Of a stretch of DNA of 30,960 nucleotides, positions 2,770 to 27,330 are shown piece after piece. The notes under the pieces are model-generated. The model searched no databases and had not been told where the DNA came from. It was given only the letters and a program-made list of their open reading frames with translations. The DNA comes from a virus: positions 1-30,960 of the IMG/VR virus record IMGVR_UViG_3300043419_000843. The stretch is one strand, 5' to 3'. The position numbers were made by a program, and so were the translations under genes. Each line of letters starts with the position of its first letter. The stretch's first letter is position 1.

Positions 2770-3236
2770 CGTCTGAATCCTGCGAGACGGAGGGTTGCGT
2801 TGACGGCATTGCCGATGGTCTTGTCAGCCTCGCCGCCGCCCAGGTAGCGGTCAAACCAGTCGCGCTCGGCGCTGCTGCCGGCCCGCTCCCAGCGGTAGCC
2901 CTCGGGCCCGGGAACGTGATCCATCGCCACGTCGGCGTATTCCATGCGATTGCCGATCGTGTAGCCGAGCAACCGATCATCGGCAGGTGGCACCTGCGGC
3001 GGGGTGACTTGAGGATCCAGCGCTTCGGGCACATCGCGACGGCTCCGGCTGGGCACGTCCTGCTGGATCCGGGTCTGGCCGGTCTCGACCACCCAGTTCT
3101 CCTCGAAGTCGCCGGACCAGTAGGGCCCGCGCTTCTTGAGCTCCGTGGTGATGTCGATGGCCACGCGCTCGGTCGCGAGCGACAGGCCCGAGCGCAGATC
3201 CTGCCCTAGCTGCTTCAGTGGGCGGGCGCGTGCCAT
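2766..3236 (-). CDS. HK97 gp10-like neck/tail component
   Basis: 156 residues. An N-terminal basic helix (ARPLKQLGQDLRSGLSLATE) is followed by KKRGPYWSGDFEENW and later GYTIGNRMEYADVAMD. The 'tpvdtGrfrasW ... N..pYa' arrangement is the signature of the HK97 gp10 family, which joins head connector and tail. It overlaps both neighbouring genes by 1-4 bp, so it is translated with them. Confidence 0.7.
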   Translation of the reverse strand: MARARPLKQLGQDLRSGLSLATERVAIDITTELKKRGPYWSGDFEENWVVETGQTRIQQDVPSRSRRDVPEALDPQVTPPQVPPADDRLLGYTIGNRMEYADVAMDHVPGPEGYRWERAGSSAERDWFDRYLGGGEADKTIGNAVNATLRLAGFRR

Positions 3237-3613
3237 TACTGCGGCCTCGCAATGCAGACGAAGAACACCGGGTTGTCACCCCTGTAGGTGGTGACGTCCA
3301 CGACCTTCGCCTTCTGGGTTTTCCCGTTCTTCGGGATTTCGAACCAGTCTTGGGTGCTGATGTATTCGCCGCCCAGCTGGCCTGGGTCGATCATGATCTT
3401 CAGATCACCGACCTGATACACCCCCTGGTCTTCCTTCGGGTTGACCTTGGTGATCACCGCCAACACGTTGAGGCGGGTCTCGCTCTCGGTGACATCGCCG
3501 GTGGCGGGGTCATAGACGCCGGGCCCGCTCGAGCGCACAAAGACCACGCTCTGGCCCCACTCCTGAATCAAGGGGCCCGGGAGCCCGCCGAAAACCGCGT
3601 CGACCTTGCTCAT
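3236..3613 (-). CDS. Head-tail stopper-like protein
   Basis: 125 residues. A beta-rich middle (RLNVLAVITKVNPKEDQGVY, then VGDLKIMIDPGQLGG) and a C-terminal VVDVTTYRGDNPVFFVCIAR strand give the small beta-barrel profile of head closure/stopper proteins. It lies between the adaptor-like and gp10-like genes and overlaps the upstream gene by 4 bp. No motif proves the role; it follows from fold-like pattern and position. Confidence 0.55.
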   Translation of the reverse strand: MSKVDAVFGGLPGPLIQEWGQSVVFVRSSGPGVYDPATGDVTESETRLNVLAVITKVNPKEDQGVYQVGDLKIMIDPGQLGGEYISTQDWFEIPKNGKTQKAKVVDVTTYRGDNPVFFVCIARPQ

Positions 3614-4083
3614 GAGCGGACCCTATAGAGCAGCGAGCTGTAGGGGTTGCTGAGGAAGCAACCGATCATCTCCTTGAGCCAGGGGAAGGTGCGCAGGAGT
3701 AGCGGGCCGCGGGTGTTGCCTCCCGTGGTTGTCACCGCACCGCCGCTGCGGGGATCAAAGTATTCGATCTCAAGCGCATCAAGCTTCTGGCGCTTCACCG
3801 GACCGACGTTGCCGGTGGTTGCGGCAGCTGCTTTCGGAATCAGGGCATTGGGGTTGATAGAGAGCGCCAAGGCCAGCTCGCTGGCAGCTCGGGTGAACTG
3901 CGCGTTGAAATCATTGCCGCAACAATCAGCCTTCTCGTCCCAGCACAGCGCCTTCAGCCAGATCTGTCCCTCGCCGAGATACATGTCGCGGTCAGACGTG
4001 CTGAGTGCGATCCACTGAGGGTTACGGGTCGTTGTGGCGAAGTAGGTGTCCGCCATCGCCCTGGTGATGGTGGGGAGTGTCAT
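3610..4083 (-). CDS. Head-tail adaptor (connector) protein
   Basis: 157 residues, starting MTLPTITRAMADTYFATTTR. The N-terminal two thirds are helical (the segment around SDRDMYLGEGQIWLKAL, then FTRAASELALALSINPNAL), and the C terminus has LEIEYFDPRSGGAV followed by a conserved-looking FPWLKEMIGCFLSN. This agrees with head-tail adaptors of the gp6/gp15 type, which dock on the portal. The start overlaps the stop of the upstream short gene by one base (TGATG), so translation is probably coupled. Confidence 0.65.
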   Translation of the reverse strand: MTLPTITRAMADTYFATTTRNPQWIALSTSDRDMYLGEGQIWLKALCWDEKADCCGNDFNAQFTRAASELALALSINPNALIPKAAAATTGNVGPVKRQKLDALEIEYFDPRSGGAVTTTGGNTRGPLLLRTFPWLKEMIGCFLSNPYSSLLYRVRS

Positions 4084-4247
4084 CAGAGGGGCACAGCAAG
4101 GACGGAATAGCCGCGGCGCTGCAGTCGCCGTTTCAGCTCAGCAGCTTCTTGGGGGTGGCAGTCAATGATGGGCGTGGTGATGGGCGGACGGTGTTGGCTG
4201 GGAACGTCCTCCTTGACCTCCACGTAGAGGCGCACGCAACCCATCAT
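4083..4247 (-). CDS. Small neck-operon protein of unknown function
   Basis: A 54-residue protein from the ATG at 4247, preceded by AGAGG 4 nt upstream; a GTG at 4295 would add 16 residues. The sequence MMGCVRLYVEVKEDVP ... AAELKRRLQRRGYSVLAVPL has a strand region followed by an amphipathic basic helix. Its stop overlaps the adaptor start by one base, so it belongs to the neck operon and is the first gene after the capsid-side terminator. I do not recognise a family. Confidence 0.6.
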   Translation of the reverse strand: MMGCVRLYVEVKEDVPSQHRPPITTPIIDCHPQEAAELKRRLQRRGYSVLAVPL

Positions 4248-4304
4248 TGGCCTCTGACCGCTAACCACCACTGTAGGCAGACTGGTGGCAGTCACCCAGT
4301 TCTC

Positions 4305-4685
4305 ATGGCCCCTCGCAAGAAAGTCGAGACCCCGAAGGTCGCTATCTCTCCTGAGCCCGAAGCCAACGAAGGCGCGAAGAGTTCAGCTCCTGCTGATGTC
4401 GATGTCTTCGTCGCCGAAGTTGCCGACGCTGACCCCTCTGCTGGTGGTGGTGGTGCGCCTGCCGTGGCTGCTCCTTCAGCAGTTGCCGCTCCGGTGAACA
4501 AGCCGTCGTATGCCACCACCGTGGTGCCTGCTCCTGCTGCAGCAAGCGCCGCTCCGGTGGGCAGCTCGGGCCAGCTGATGGGCATTCAGCTCGGCGTTGA
4601 AACCAAGGCCCAACACGATGCACGCCTCGGTGCTCGTGCTGGCACCACGGGTGACATCGGCTGGCTGCTCGGCACCGTCGCCTGA
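4305..4685 (+). CDS. Plus-strand Ala/Pro-rich protein beside the capsid gene, unknown
   Basis: 126 residues from an ATG at 4305, starting MAPRKKVETPKVAISPEPEA. A charged N terminus leads into an Ala/Pro/Val-rich linker (about 50-85) and a less biased C terminus (SGQLMGIQLGVETKAQHDAR, then GTTGDIGWLLG). Codon choice (GCT, GCC, CTG, CTC, GGC, ATC) looks like real coding sequence rather than a shadow frame, and antisense frames look poorer. No Shine-Dalgarno sequence is visible. It is convergent with the capsid gene and divergent from the neck genes, unusual in an otherwise minus-strand head module. A capsid decoration or head-fibre role is possible but only a guess. Confidence 0.6.
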   Translation: MAPRKKVETPKVAISPEPEANEGAKSSAPADVDVFVAEVADADPSAGGGGAPAVAAPSAVAAPVNKPSYATTVVPAPAAASAAPVGSSGQLMGIQLGVETKAQHDARLGARAGTTGDIGWLLGTVA

Positions 4686-4687
4686 GC

Positions 4688-4713
4688 AATAAAAAGGGGG
4701 CCTTTCGGCCCCC
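4688..4713 (-). terminator. Rho-independent terminator after the capsid gene
   Basis: A 7-bp stem (GGGGGCC with GGCCCCC), loop TTTC, is followed on the minus strand by UUUUUAUU. It lies 22 bp after the capsid stop and directly after the stop of the plus-strand gene; the U-tract shows it acts for the capsid transcript. Confidence 0.85.
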
Positions 4714-4734
4714 AAACATTCCACCTGAATGATC

Positions 4735-5883
4735 TCAGGGGTTGACTGCGAACGGGCTGTTCACGGTCATCTTCACGATGGGGATCTGGTGGTGGTCGTA
4801 CTTCAGAGCCCAGGAACCAGCAGTAGCCAGCAAAGTGTTGTCGGGGTTGTCTGTGGCGGAAGCCCAAGACACGCCATCAACGTGCAGCAGCTGGTGGTAA
4901 TCGCAAGAAGCGATGTCCTGCTTGCTGAGGATGTTCCGCTCGTATTCAATGCGGAAGTCCTGCTGGATGCCCATCTGAATGGCCCCAGGGGCGAACAGGT
5001 ACACGGGGTACTTGTCGCCGTTGGTGGTGTCAGTGGTAGGAGCCAGCTGGTCGTCCACGATGACACGCAGGCCAGCGAAGTTGGCGATCTCAGTGGAAGA
5101 GATGCCCACGCCACCGCCGCCCCAGGCGATGTTGCCGCCGGTGCTCAAAGACGAGGTGCTGAAGGTCAGCATCCCGATGGTTTTGAGGTAGGCGTAGACG
5201 TGCGAGTGCATAGCAATCGCAGTCAGCTGGCTGGCATTTTCACCAAGGATTGTGGATGCCTTGATGACGTTGGAGGCCGACAGGAAGTTGGCCTCAGCGG
5301 AAGCAGTACCGCCGGTGCGGGACACATCCAGGATGTGGGTGGTGCCGCCGGCAGCGATAGCGCCCAGCACGCCGGTCAGCACCTGCACCATGGTGGTGGT
5401 GCGGATGCGCAGCATGGAGTCGGCCAGATAGCTCGCAATCGCGGCCATCGGGTCAGCACCAGCGCCCATCTTGCTGAGATCGTCAGCAGCCCACGCGAAG
5501 CCCCTGTGAGTTACAGCGGCAACTTGGGTGTCGGCGTTGATCTTCTGAGGCGAGAGATATCCCGCCGCAGATATACCCCACGTAGTATTCGATTGAATAA
5601 TTTCTTCCGTCGCTAAAAATGGACGAAAGTAGGGGACAGTGATGCGAGTTCCGCCGCTGGACATATCCAACGCGGTGTTGCGTTGGATGATGCCGGACTG
5701 TACCCATGCACAACGACCGTATACCTGCTCACGCACGTACTGGCCGAAGTTAACTTTGGTGATCAAGTCACCAAGGAAAGTGCTACCCCAGTTGGGATTG
5801 GCGCGAGTGCCGATCGCAACCGCGGTCGGTGTCGTTGAAGGGGGTACGACGGTGACGCCGTAGTTGTGTTGAACGGATGCCAT
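4735..5883 (-). CDS. Major capsid protein
   Basis: 382 residues, a usual length for an HK97-fold coat protein. The N terminus (NPNWGSTFLGDLITKVNFGQ, then VREQVYGRCAWVQSGII) and a C-terminal region with FRIEYERNILSKQDIASCDY agree with coat proteins that lie next to a scaffold gene. It directly follows the scaffold gene (24 bp gap) and is followed by a strong terminator, as expected for the most abundant virion protein. No Shine-Dalgarno sequence is evident before the ATG; a TTGACA upstream lies too close to the start to be a simple promoter for it. The fold is inferred from size, order and general resemblance. Confidence 0.85.
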   Translation of the reverse strand: MASVQHNYGVTVVPPSTTPTAVAIGTRANPNWGSTFLGDLITKVNFGQYVREQVYGRCAWVQSGIIQRNTALDMSSGGTRITVPYFRPFLATEEIIQSNTTWGISAAGYLSPQKINADTQVAAVTHRGFAWAADDLSKMGAGADPMAAIASYLADSMLRIRTTTMVQVLTGVLGAIAAGGTTHILDVSRTGGTASAEANFLSASNVIKASTILGENASQLTAIAMHSHVYAYLKTIGMLTFSTSSLSTGGNIAWGGGGVGISSTEIANFAGLRVIVDDQLAPTTDTTNGDKYPVYLFAPGAIQMGIQQDFRIEYERNILSKQDIASCDYHQLLHVDGVSWASATDNPDNTLLATAGSWALKYDHHQIPIVKMTVNSPFAVNP

Positions 5884-23875: not shown

Positions 23876-24388
23876 TCACTCAGTCTGGCTGGGTTGGAGA
23901 TCGAGAGCTGCGAACTCGCCACGAAGCTCAACAGCCTTGGCGCAGTATGCAGCGTGGGCCTCCTCAGCAGTAGCAAAGTATCCGAGGTGATACTTCTGCC
24001 CGAGGTGTTTGATCTGGGCCCGCCAGCACTGTTGACGGCGATACCACGTAACCCCACGAAACCCGTGTGGATTCAGGTCCACCTTGTTCATCTGATTCTG
24101 CTGGTGGGTGGCGGTTCTGAGGTTCCAACCTCGATTGTCGAGCCGAACACCGTTGATATGGTCCACCTGCAGGTAAGGGCTCAGGGGCTGGCTAGATAGC
24201 CAGGAGAACACAATGCGGTGCTGCTGGTAGCTGTGGCACTGAAACTGCAGCCCCCAGTACCCGTTGCAGGTCTTGTACCCCGCCTGTCTGCCGGTTTCGC
24301 GCCAGTAGAGCAAGCCAGTCAGCGGGTTGTAGGAGAACGTCTCCCAGAGCAGCTCCTGTGCAGGTAGCTCCCTGTATCGTTGCTTCAT
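23876..24388 (-). CDS. HNH homing endonuclease with AP2 domain
   Basis: 170 residues from ATG 24388. A longer frame to 24448 is rejected because it would translate through the conserved hairpin leader. N-terminal LLWETFSYNPLTGLLYWRET is shared with the other HNH-AP2 proteins here. HNH core: QQHRIVFSWL (H57), LQVDHINGVRLDNRGWNLRT (74-92). AP2 domain at about 108-158: FRGVTWYRRQQCWRAQIKHL, then LGYFATAEEAHAAYCAKAVE. All expected HNH residues are present, so it is probably active. It lies inside the replication/accessory region on the same strand as its neighbours. Confidence 0.9.
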   Translation of the reverse strand: MKQRYRELPAQELLWETFSYNPLTGLLYWRETGRQAGYKTCNGYWGLQFQCHSYQQHRIVFSWLSSQPLSPYLQVDHINGVRLDNRGWNLRTATHQQNQMNKVDLNPHGFRGVTWYRRQQCWRAQIKHLGQKYHLGYFATAEEAHAAYCAKAVELRGEFAALDLQPSQTE

Positions 24389-24414
24389 CAGCTCAGTCCA
24401 AGTGAGTTGGTCAC

Positions 24415-24475
24415 GGCTCAGAGGCGGGAACCTGCTGAGCCACTCCATTCTATGCTGCGCAGCTAGCTCGGTCGA
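24415..24475 (-). promoter_or_regulatory. Promoter and bulged-C hairpin leader of the HNH gene at 24388
   Basis: This copy has a full promoter: TCGACC (24475-24470), 17 bp spacer with GAGCTAGCT, TAGAAT (24452-24447). The hairpin begins 5 nt later (24441-24415): outer stem GGCTCAG/CTGAGCC, bulged C at 24434, inner stem AGG/CCT, loop TTCCCG. GTGACCA follows; the ATG starts 26 nt after the stem. The predicted start of transcription falls at the hairpin. Confidence 0.75.
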
Positions 24476-25145
24476 GCGTTTCCAGGTAGCGATCTAGACG
24501 CTCGAGAAAGACCTGCTCCTGGGCGAGGAGGTCTTCGTGCTCCAAGATCCACACGTCAGGCCAGGAGCCCGTAGGTCTCCCGATCACGAGACAGGCTTTG
24601 GTTGGCTCAATGTCATAGGTGTGCTTGAGGCCGAGGCTGTAAGCACCGAGCTGGGCCATGTAGCCCGCCACGAGATCAGCCGAGCGGCGGCGCTTCGAGC
24701 TCTTCCAGTCGATGAGCGTGACATCTTGCCAGTGGGCGCAGTAGGCGAGCAGGTCAAATGTCCCTGCTGCACCCAGAGAGCCGTGGGGAAAGAACACGGG
24801 CATCTCCATGGCGAGAGGCTCAACAACGTTTTCCTTGACCCAGGGGAGGATGTTGCGGAGGTATCCCCCGAAGGCGAGGTGGTTCTCGGTGGCCTGGCCC
24901 ATCAGATGACGCTCCACCTGCTCGTGCATCCAGGTGCCACGCCTACAGGCCGCGGCGGATTCGCGTTGAGCTCCAGGTCGAGCCAGCCAGGTTTGTAGAG
25001 CGGCTTTGGATTCCGGGCTGGCGGTCTCCCCGATCACGCGGGTGATCGAGGGCATGGTGCCGGCACTGGTTTCATAGCCGGTGCGATCTTCCCGGCGTGC
25101 GATGACCTCTTGAGTGCCGGGAAAGGTCAAGCGCACGCCGCTCAT
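24450..25145 (-). CDS. PD-(D/E)XK exonuclease (RecB/Cas4-like)
   Basis: 231 residues. The nuclease motifs are in order: RGTWMHEQVE with H74, AMEMPVF with E114, GTFDLLA with D131, LIDWKSSK with D146 and K148, and YMAQLGAY with Q165. This is the single-domain RecB-type nuclease arrangement, which in phages usually acts in recombination or DNA end processing, probably with the ssDNA-binding protein at 27409-28017. The start overlaps the methyltransferase stop by 4 bp (ATGA), so translation is coupled. The 3' end contains the promoter of the downstream HNH gene. Confidence 0.85.
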   Translation of the reverse strand: MSGVRLTFPGTQEVIARREDRTGYETSAGTMPSITRVIGETASPESKAALQTWLARPGAQRESAAACRRGTWMHEQVERHLMGQATENHLAFGGYLRNILPWVKENVVEPLAMEMPVFFPHGSLGAAGTFDLLAYCAHWQDVTLIDWKSSKRRRSADLVAGYMAQLGAYSLGLKHTYDIEPTKACLVIGRPTGSWPDVWILEHEDLLAQEQVFLERLDRYLETLDRASCAA

Positions 25146-25981
25146 AGCCGAATTTGCGATAGCTCTAGCACCCGTTGCAGTGGCACAGCAGCTACATGGG
25201 GAACTACAGCGTTTCCGAGAGCTTTAAGGCGGTGTACCCGATCGGAAAGCCCATCATCTCCTCGACAAAGGACGGGTTCAGATACGTAGCTTCGCCAGTC
25301 GCTTGAGAGGCGATGACTACTACACCAGCGAGTTTCGACTTGGCTGCCACCTTCTCGTAGTTGACGTTCGGCCCCGTATCTTTGTGATCGCGGGTGGTCG
25401 GTGTCGGGAGCATCCGAGCGATAACGGTCTCCAGATTTGGATTTGGGTGCTTGGCCTGGGTACGTAGGTCGCAGGTCATCGCTGAGTTCGCTCTGGGCGT
25501 AGGCAACGAGCCACCAGCGGTCACGCTTGTGGCAGGCTCCCACATCACTTGCGCGGATACACGCCCATTCCGCATCGAACCCTGCCGCGGCCAACTCCCC
25601 GAGAACAATGTCGAGCCCCCGTGTTCTGATGGCTGCAACGTTCTCCAGGATGACGAAGCTAGGTCGAACTGCGCGAGCAACTCGCATGAGTTGGTGGAAG
25701 AGTCCCGAGCGTGTGCCATCGGCAATTCCTGCACCAAGGCCAGCGTAGGAGATGTCCTGGCAGGGGAATCCACCGCAAATAACGTCAGCTGCCCCGGCGA
25801 GAGGCTGATACGTCGAGATGTCATCGTGAATCGGAACGTCTGGCCAGTGCTGGCGAAGAACTCGCTGGCAGAAAGAGTCGATCTCAACGAACTGAACTGT
25901 TTCGTAGCCGCCGACAAGTTGTTCGGCGGCGTAACTAAAGCCGCCGATACCGCTGAACAGATCCAGGAGTTTCAGAACCAC
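25142..25981 (-). CDS. DNA (cytosine-5-)-methyltransferase
   Basis: 279 residues from GTG 25981. All core motifs are present: I, LDLFSGIGGF (6-15); IV, GGFPCQDIS with catalytic C74; VI, ENV (113-115); VIII, HKRDRWWLVAY (151-161); X, LKALGNAVVP (252-261). The target-recognition region between VIII and X is short. It would transfer methyl groups to cytosine in phage DNA, possibly to evade host restriction; no matching restriction enzyme is present. The same DNA is read in a second, +1-shifted frame (25204-25824) that looks like a separate conserved phage protein. The following exonuclease gene overlaps by ATGA. Confidence 0.95.
   Translation of the reverse strand: MVLKLLDLFSGIGGFSYAAEQLVGGYETVQFVEIDSFCQRVLRQHWPDVPIHDDISTYQPLAGAADVICGGFPCQDISYAGLGAGIADGTRSGLFHQLMRVARAVRPSFVILENVAAIRTRGLDIVLGELAAAGFDAEWACIRASDVGACHKRDRWWLVAYAQSELSDDLRPTYPGQAPKSKSGDRYRSDAPDTDHPRSQRYGAERQLREGGSQVETRWCSSHRLSSDWRSYVSEPVLCRGDDGLSDRVHRLKALGNAVVPHVAAVPLQRVLELSQIRL
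25204..25824 (-). CDS. Second reading frame within the methyltransferase gene, phage family protein
   Basis: A 206-residue frame from ATG 25824 (open to 25917), wholly inside the methyltransferase gene and shifted by one base. Several segments look like a known phage protein family rather than noise: GQLTLFAVDSPARTS, SSWRTLQPS, FSGSWPRQGSMRNGRV, SLPTPRANSAM, LPTPTTRDHKDTG and, near the end, LNPSFVEEMMGFPIGYTALK. The last (LNPxFVExxMGFPxGxT) recurs in many stand-alone phage proteins annotated as methyltransferase-associated, as I recall. Whether this frame is translated cannot be decided from the sequence; no Shine-Dalgarno sequence precedes the ATG. Confidence 0.55.
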   Translation of the reverse strand: MTSRRISLSPGQLTLFAVDSPARTSPTLALVQELPMAHARDSSTNSCELLAQFDLASSSWRTLQPSEHGGSTLFSGSWPRQGSMRNGRVSAQVMWEPATSVTAGGSLPTPRANSAMTCDLRTQAKHPNPNLETVIARMLPTPTTRDHKDTGPNVNYEKVAAKSKLAGVVVIASQATGEATYLNPSFVEEMMGFPIGYTALKLSETL

Positions 25982-25986
25982 GAGAT

Positions 25987-26238
25987 CTACCTACTAGTCT
26001 CGGCGACCTGCAGAACCTTGACCGGACGGGTGCGGGTGTTGCGGGGGACGGGGAGCCATTGCAGCTGCTGAGCTGGCAAGAAGACTTCGTTGGTTTGGAG
26101 GGTGTAGAAGCGATGGTCGCAGAACTCGCAGTGTCTGCGGCGGACCAGTTGACCTTCAGTGGAGCGGGTGGTGTTGACGACGCGGGTGGTGCGTGAGTCG
26201 CAGTTAGGGCAAGGGAGCCCGGTCTGATTGATCGGCAT
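25987..26238 (-). CDS. NrdR-like zinc-ribbon protein
   Basis: 83 residues. C10, C13, C37 and C40 in CPNC...CEFC with intervening TRVVNTTRSTEGQLVRRRH and following DHRFYTLQ closely match the N-terminal zinc ribbon of NrdR, which represses ribonucleotide reductase genes; the ATP-cone domain of true NrdR is absent. It is probably a phage DNA-binding regulator or accessory factor. The start overlaps the preceding stop by one base (TGATG). Confidence 0.75.
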   Translation of the reverse strand: MPINQTGLPCPNCDSRTTRVVNTTRSTEGQLVRRRHCEFCDHRFYTLQTNEVFLPAQQLQWLPVPRNTRTRPVKVLQVAETSR

Positions 26239-26817: not shown

Positions 26818-27330
26818 TTAGGCAGCTCGGTGAAATTCGCCACGCAACTCGGCTGAGGCGCGGCAGTAGGCAGCGTGGGCTTCCTCGGGGGTGTCGTGCA
26901 GCCCGAGGTAATAGCGCTTGCCCTCGTGCATCAGCAGCGCTTGGTAGCGCTTCTTGCGCTTGTGGAAGCAGACGCCGCGATAGCCCGTAGTGCCGTTAGA
27001 TGACGGGCCGCGATTGCCTTGCTGTTGCACGCCATCAGCAAGCCGCAGGTTGTGCCAGGCGTTGTTGCCCTTGTCTCGGTCGATGTGATCGACCTGGAGC
27101 TCGCCGGGGTCTTCGCCCGTCACATACATCCAGGCCAGACGCTGGACGTTGTATGGGTGAAAGTCGATCTTGACCCAGCGATAGCCGTCAGGGCGGTCGC
27201 TACCCGCTCGGCTGCCGGCGGGGATCACGTTGCTGCGCTTGACCTTCCAGTAGAACTCGCCGGTGATCACGGAATAGTCAAGAAGCGAATGAAGTCGCGC
27301 CTGCGTAGGCAGGGGGTTAGGTTTAGGCAT
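26818..27330 (-). CDS. HNH homing endonuclease with AP2 domain
   Basis: 170 residues from ATG 27330. N-terminal LLDYSVITGEFYWKVKRSN, HNH core VQRLAWMYVTGEDPGELQVD, HIDRDKGNNAWHNLRLADG (D81, H82, NN 89-90, NLR 94-96), then an AP2 domain (YRGVCFHKRKKRYQALLMHE, YLGLHDTPEEAHAAYCRASA). The GEDPGELxVDHIDR segment is nearly identical to the truncated HNH at 17360, so they share a recent ancestor. All catalytic positions are present. The leader hairpin is the same sequence as the copy at 6718. Confidence 0.92.
   Translation of the reverse strand: MPKPNPLPTQARLHSLLDYSVITGEFYWKVKRSNVIPAGSRAGSDRPDGYRWVKIDFHPYNVQRLAWMYVTGEDPGELQVDHIDRDKGNNAWHNLRLADGVQQQGNRGPSSNGTTGYRGVCFHKRKKRYQALLMHEGKRYYLGLHDTPEEAHAAYCRASAELRGEFHRAA

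Follow-up and report, generated by a model that had tools for sequence, protein, structure and literature searches.

Our analyses indicate that a phage locus with two overlapping reading frames very probably encodes a naturally split, heterodimeric C5-cytosine DNA methyltransferase of the M.EcoHK31I kind. The window, which is the whole stretch of 30,960 nucleotides that was analysed, is a virus record (IMG/VR IMGVR_UViG_3300043419_000843), and both frames lie on its minus strand. The outer one, alpha (positions 25142-25981, 279 amino acids from a GTG start), carries the large domain of a C5-methyltransferase with motifs I-VIII and X, and lacks motif IX. The inner one, beta (25204-25824, 206 amino acids from ATG 25824), is nested wholly within alpha in the +1 frame, as part of an open reading frame (25204-25917) that reaches 237 codons when counted from TTG 25917. 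Where alpha reads GLSDRVHRLKALGNA, the +1 frame of the same bases reads MGFPIGYTALKLSET. The coordinates and peptides that an earlier note on this DNA had reported for the two frames are all present and correct. To our knowledge, overlaps of more than 600 bp with conserved parts in both frames are rare, and the two products encoded here are probably halves of one enzyme. Alpha would provide the large domain (motifs I-VIII), which performs catalysis and binds AdoMet, followed by a flexible spacer and the helix of motif X. Beta, translated from an internal start codon, would provide the small domain, made of the target-recognition region (TRD) and motif IX. Assembled as one enzyme, beta would pick the DNA site and alpha would flip and methylate the cytosine. 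For the phage, the likely role would be the protection of its own DNA from host restriction, because no partner restriction endonuclease was recognised among the ten neighbouring proteins checked.

Alpha matches the methyltransferase family PF00145 (E 1e-36), including the catalytic PCQ of motif IV and ENV of motif VI, as well as phrog_363 (E 7e-71), and its profile matches M.HhaI over motifs I-VIII (E 7.5e-38). Foldseek searches with the AlphaFold2 model of alpha also retrieved M.HhaI as best matches. The model is confident at residues 1-175 and 248-278 and contains a predicted helix (248-257) in the region of motif X (RLKALGNAVVPHVAA, 25187-25231), a motif in which G256, N257, V259 and P261 are invariant in 59 alphas. 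M.HhaI and other single-chain C5-methyltransferases share with alpha the fold and motifs I-VIII, but they are monomers in which a single frame also supplies the TRD and motifs IX and X. Alpha is not a complete enzyme of this type: it has no motif IX, and the stretch between motifs VIII and X is predicted to be disordered, with pLDDT values below 50 at residues 182-218 and 220-226. This stretch (residues 163-240, positions 25262-25495), the bases of which encode the LPTP-containing recognition region in beta, evolves like a spacer. Within its codons, position 1 varies most, and this is the wobble position of beta, which implies that the protein selected there is mainly beta.

Beta matches phrog_1008, annotated as 'DNA methyltransferase' (E 8e-23), as do the betas of other lineages, and it had no match above cut-off to any Pfam family and none to any NCBIfam family. 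This family, phrog_1008, is the beta half annotated in its own right. It extends over 329 positions, more than beta, and towards its end there is also a likeness to motif X, which here is in the alpha frame. The conserved core of the betas comprises SSWRT, WPRSG, RNG and one or more LPTPxxxD units, and ends in LNPxFVEEMMGFPxGWT. The segment LNPSFVEEMMGFPIGYT (25231-25281), nearly invariant in 65 betas, resembles in its pattern KLHPRECARVMGYPDSYKV of M.HhaI, which we take to be the motif IX segment of that enzyme. One actinobacterial relative, in which the corresponding piece is in frame, aligns with this M.HhaI segment, the piece by itself not being significant. Profile searches of the PDB, first with beta and also with the motif IX segment alone, gave no matches or chance matches, and beta alone folded poorly in silico, with no structural match in a fold search. 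The assignment of motif IX to beta rests on pattern and position, and beta would also carry the target-recognition region. The end of the putative motif IX in beta and the start of motif X in alpha coincide at position 25231. The order VIII-TRD-IX-X of a single chain, with TRD and IX shifted into another frame, would yield just such a junction at this position.

Both frames are under selection, and the dual coding over more than 600 bp that the earlier note had proposed is real. The +1 frame of this alpha gene is open for 255 codons, whereas shuffling its synonymous codons with the protein kept fixed leaves 110 on average (p=0.0015), and the +2 frame is open for just 51. Of 104 distinct alpha homologues taken from IMG/VR, 101 have a +1 frame that stays open for 150 codons or more, and one has such a +2 frame; across homologues, the +1 open length is 239 codons, against ~117 in synonymously shuffled alpha genes. 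Four-fold third-base identity in viral loci is 0.76 within the overlap versus 0.39 outside (higher inside in 50 of 51 disjoint pairs), and in bacterial and archaeal loci 0.68 versus 0.49 (24 of 27 disjoint pairs), the Streptomyces loci being too similar for a firm synonymous-site result. Along alpha, this identity stays at about shuffle level at residues 1-50, is modestly raised at residues 61-100, rises strongly at residues 101-140 and 231-250, with values of 0.93-0.94 that extend across the bases of the motif IX-like segment of beta, and returns to about shuffle level at residues 251-279. The conservation ends where the overlap ends. Such strong third-base conservation inside the overlap, with values near background outside, implies selection on both frames, and the depression of synonymous change that the earlier note had suggested looking for is thus present.

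A beta profile trained on viral loci only scored a mean of 152 bits on the +1 frames of bacterial and archaeal loci, compared with 55 bits on synonymous shuffles, and each of the 79 loci outscored every one of its own shuffles. The conserved alpha protein forces part of this family likeness, especially where motif IV (GGFPCQDIS, 25748-25774) and VDSPARTS of beta are read from the same bases, and the shuffles still reach those 55 bits. The N-terminal LTLFAxDSPAKTS of the betas was rejected as proof of a shared family; much of it is dictated by the alpha codons for GGFPCQDIS, and third-base constraint is weak at alpha residues 71-100. One might suspect that the whole +1 frame is a by-product of codon usage and alpha conservation that yields no product, given that shuffled alpha genes keep +1 frames of ~117 codons with some likeness to beta. 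This is highly improbable: the observed frames exceed the shuffles both in length (239 versus 117 codons) and in score (152 versus 55 bits, in 79 of 79 loci), the third-base conservation is confined to the overlap, and the synonymous-site test contradicts such a reading.

Internal ATG codons offer candidate starts for the translation of beta. ATG 25824 has no Shine-Dalgarno sequence, whereas ATG 25719, which would give a shorter beta of 171 amino acids (25204-25719), is preceded at a suitable spacing of ~7 nt by AGGA; the calculated duplexes are -0.4 and -5.2 kcal/mol, respectively. Across the family, Shine-Dalgarno sequences at beta starts were not enriched over synonymous shuffles, a result that favours neither start, and start codons of beta gave no signal over synonymous shuffles or general Asp codon use. 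This lack of a family-wide initiation signal would also suit an alternative in which beta is not initiated separately and ribosomes that start on alpha undergo a programmed +1 shift after motif VIII, making a single chain with motifs I-VIII, TRD and IX. The order of the frames suits a +1 shift at the VIII/TRD boundary, and actinobacterial relatives carry the C-terminal part in differing frames. However, such a fused product would have no motif X, and good internal starts, complete with a Shine-Dalgarno sequence, are present in several relatives. Moreover, the constraint on the beta frame extends far upstream of motif VIII, over alpha residues 101-160, where a shift after VIII would have no need of it. 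Because of this upstream constraint, we regard the frameshifted fusion as unlikely compared with a separately initiated beta.

The nested arrangement is widespread. Searches with alpha or beta brought up 314 loci, some contigs being represented more than once, and in 311 of them beta is nested in the +1 frame of alpha. In two of the exceptions (L058 and L287), the beta frame begins at the contig edge. The third (L186, 3902-4261) is a lone beta-like fragment of 120 codons that spans LPTP to MGFPIGWT; its strand showed no catalytic domain, and it is either a remnant or the sole candidate for a stand-alone beta. A less biased test was provided by scanning whole genomes with a profile of beta only, which matched 18 of 299 genomes belonging to the same phylum as an Acinetobacter genome, and 4 of 199 in the phylum of a Paenibacillus genome. 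Every place fetched from these 22 genomes was the +1 frame of an open reading frame with matches to the methyltransferase catalytic domain, to motif X or to both. Thus, beta travels with alpha and not separately, and no stand-alone beta gene was established in the 314 loci or in the 299 and 199 genomes. The arrangement appears to be common in phages and to occur also in bacteria and archaea, nearly all of more than 300 fetched loci, some of them redundant, having it.

The earlier note had matched the +1 protein to a phage family known from separate genes; as an independent family it finds no support, every place fetched from the 22 genomes being in a methyltransferase +1 frame. It had also named two outcomes that would count against its reading: one came about, since the +1 frame found no matches outside methyltransferase loci, and the other did not, synonymous change being depressed in the overlap. 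A related possibility is that beta arose by overprinting as a functionally independent phage protein, for instance an anti-restriction factor, unrelated to methylation. Conservation of beta, together with its failure to match any fold or Pfam family, would suit such a protein, but motif IX and an ordered recognition domain are absent from alpha at just the place where beta provides them. In addition, other methyltransferases contain beta-like segments in frame, and no beta was established apart from a methyltransferase. We therefore find an independent function quite improbable, and beta as half of a methyltransferase by far the better reading.

Relatives with other layouts suggest how such split enzymes may have evolved. 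The family phrog_116 matches alpha at positions 208-390 and then beta at 424-499, so that elsewhere the catalytic part and the beta part follow each other in one chain. Genomes of Streptomyces and Actinomadura have the MGxxxGW segment in frame with motifs I-VIII, and those of Streptomyces also have LPTP units there. One Streptomyces locus (L192, 3989-4402 within 3163-5022) and others like it have the LPTP units, MGxxxGW and motif X in the alpha frame, and a beta-like N-terminal part (SSWKT, WPRSG) persists in their +1 frame up to a stop. The frame change in these loci seems to lie inside the recognition region. In Streptomyces phage Samy, a short alpha (1257-1793, 179 codons, motifs I-VIII) is overlapped by a beta frame of 372 codons (1489-2604), the phrog_1008 match of which reaches the end of the family; this layout looks closer to that of M.AquI. 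The suggestion of the earlier note that the two frames are related by overprinting holds for the N-terminal part of beta, which overprints codons of the catalytic domain; its C-terminal part looks instead like the displaced middle (TRD and motif IX) of the same enzyme. We lean towards a view in which two-frame C5-methyltransferases form a large, mostly unrecognised class across phages, bacteria and archaea, born when frame changes at the VIII/TRD and IX/X boundaries divided a single-chain enzyme, the N-terminus of beta being then overprinted on catalytic codons. The actinobacterial relatives would represent other stages, either AquI-like or with the TRD back in the alpha frame.

One two-frame split enzyme has long been known. 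This is M.EcoHK31I (Lee, Kam and Shaw 1995, NAR 23:103), which recognises YGGCCR. Its small subunit is encoded in another frame within the gene of the large one, and beta is likewise nested in the +1 frame inside alpha. The large polypeptide of M.EcoHK31I carries motifs I-VIII and X, and the small one motif IX (PMC3404938). Compared by description and not by sequence, our locus has the same partition between two polypeptides, motif IX being placed in beta by pattern and position and not by a significant profile match. The two differ in that the predicted TRD of M.EcoHK31I was placed in its large subunit (PMC3404938), whereas here we assign the TRD region to beta, and in that M.EcoHK31I is bacterial and the present gene comes from a phage. 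M.AquI, which recognises CYCGRG, is also a naturally split C5-methyltransferase; its alpha carries the catalytic motifs, and its beta carries motif IX and, in addition, motif X (PMC3404938). It resembles our locus in the first two respects but not in the third, motif X being here in the alpha frame.

The surroundings of the locus contain an exonuclease-like gene (24450-25145), a terminase large subunit and a DNA helicase. Two HNH endonucleases, both of phrog_99 (23876-24448 and 26818-27330), lie ~0.7 kb and ~0.8 kb from the methyltransferase region; homing-type genes often flank in this manner. Directly upstream of alpha (25987-26238) is encoded a protein of 83 amino acids with two CxxC pairs (CPNCDSRTTRV and CEFCDHRFYT), which by eye resembles an NrdR-type zinc ribbon and finds its only matches among PHROGs of unknown function.

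Public records are inconsistent in whether they annotate alpha, beta or both, and beta is often omitted. Two pieces are annotated in Streptomyces phage Samy (L315), alpha alone in Synechococcus phage S-H1, and part of beta, as a hypothetical protein, in Microcystis phage Mwe-JY08. In Paenibacillus phage Bloom (L354), two nested frames that are +1 apart (975-2030 and 1177-1881) are both annotated as 'DNA cytosine methyltransferase', so the nested pair has already been seen by annotators. Our literature search found no paper that explains the nested pair or describes a widespread nested class. The split kind itself is known, though little-known; what has been under-appreciated is its breadth and its uneven annotation. 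If the class is as common as our scans suggest, many C5-methyltransferases described as single-chain are annotated without half of their enzyme. Beta would then be destroyed whenever alpha alone is cloned or codon-optimised, and specificity would be credited to the wrong chain. The many homologous loci, and comparison with relatives that are AquI-like or in-frame, allow direct tests of how overprinted genes arise and are maintained.
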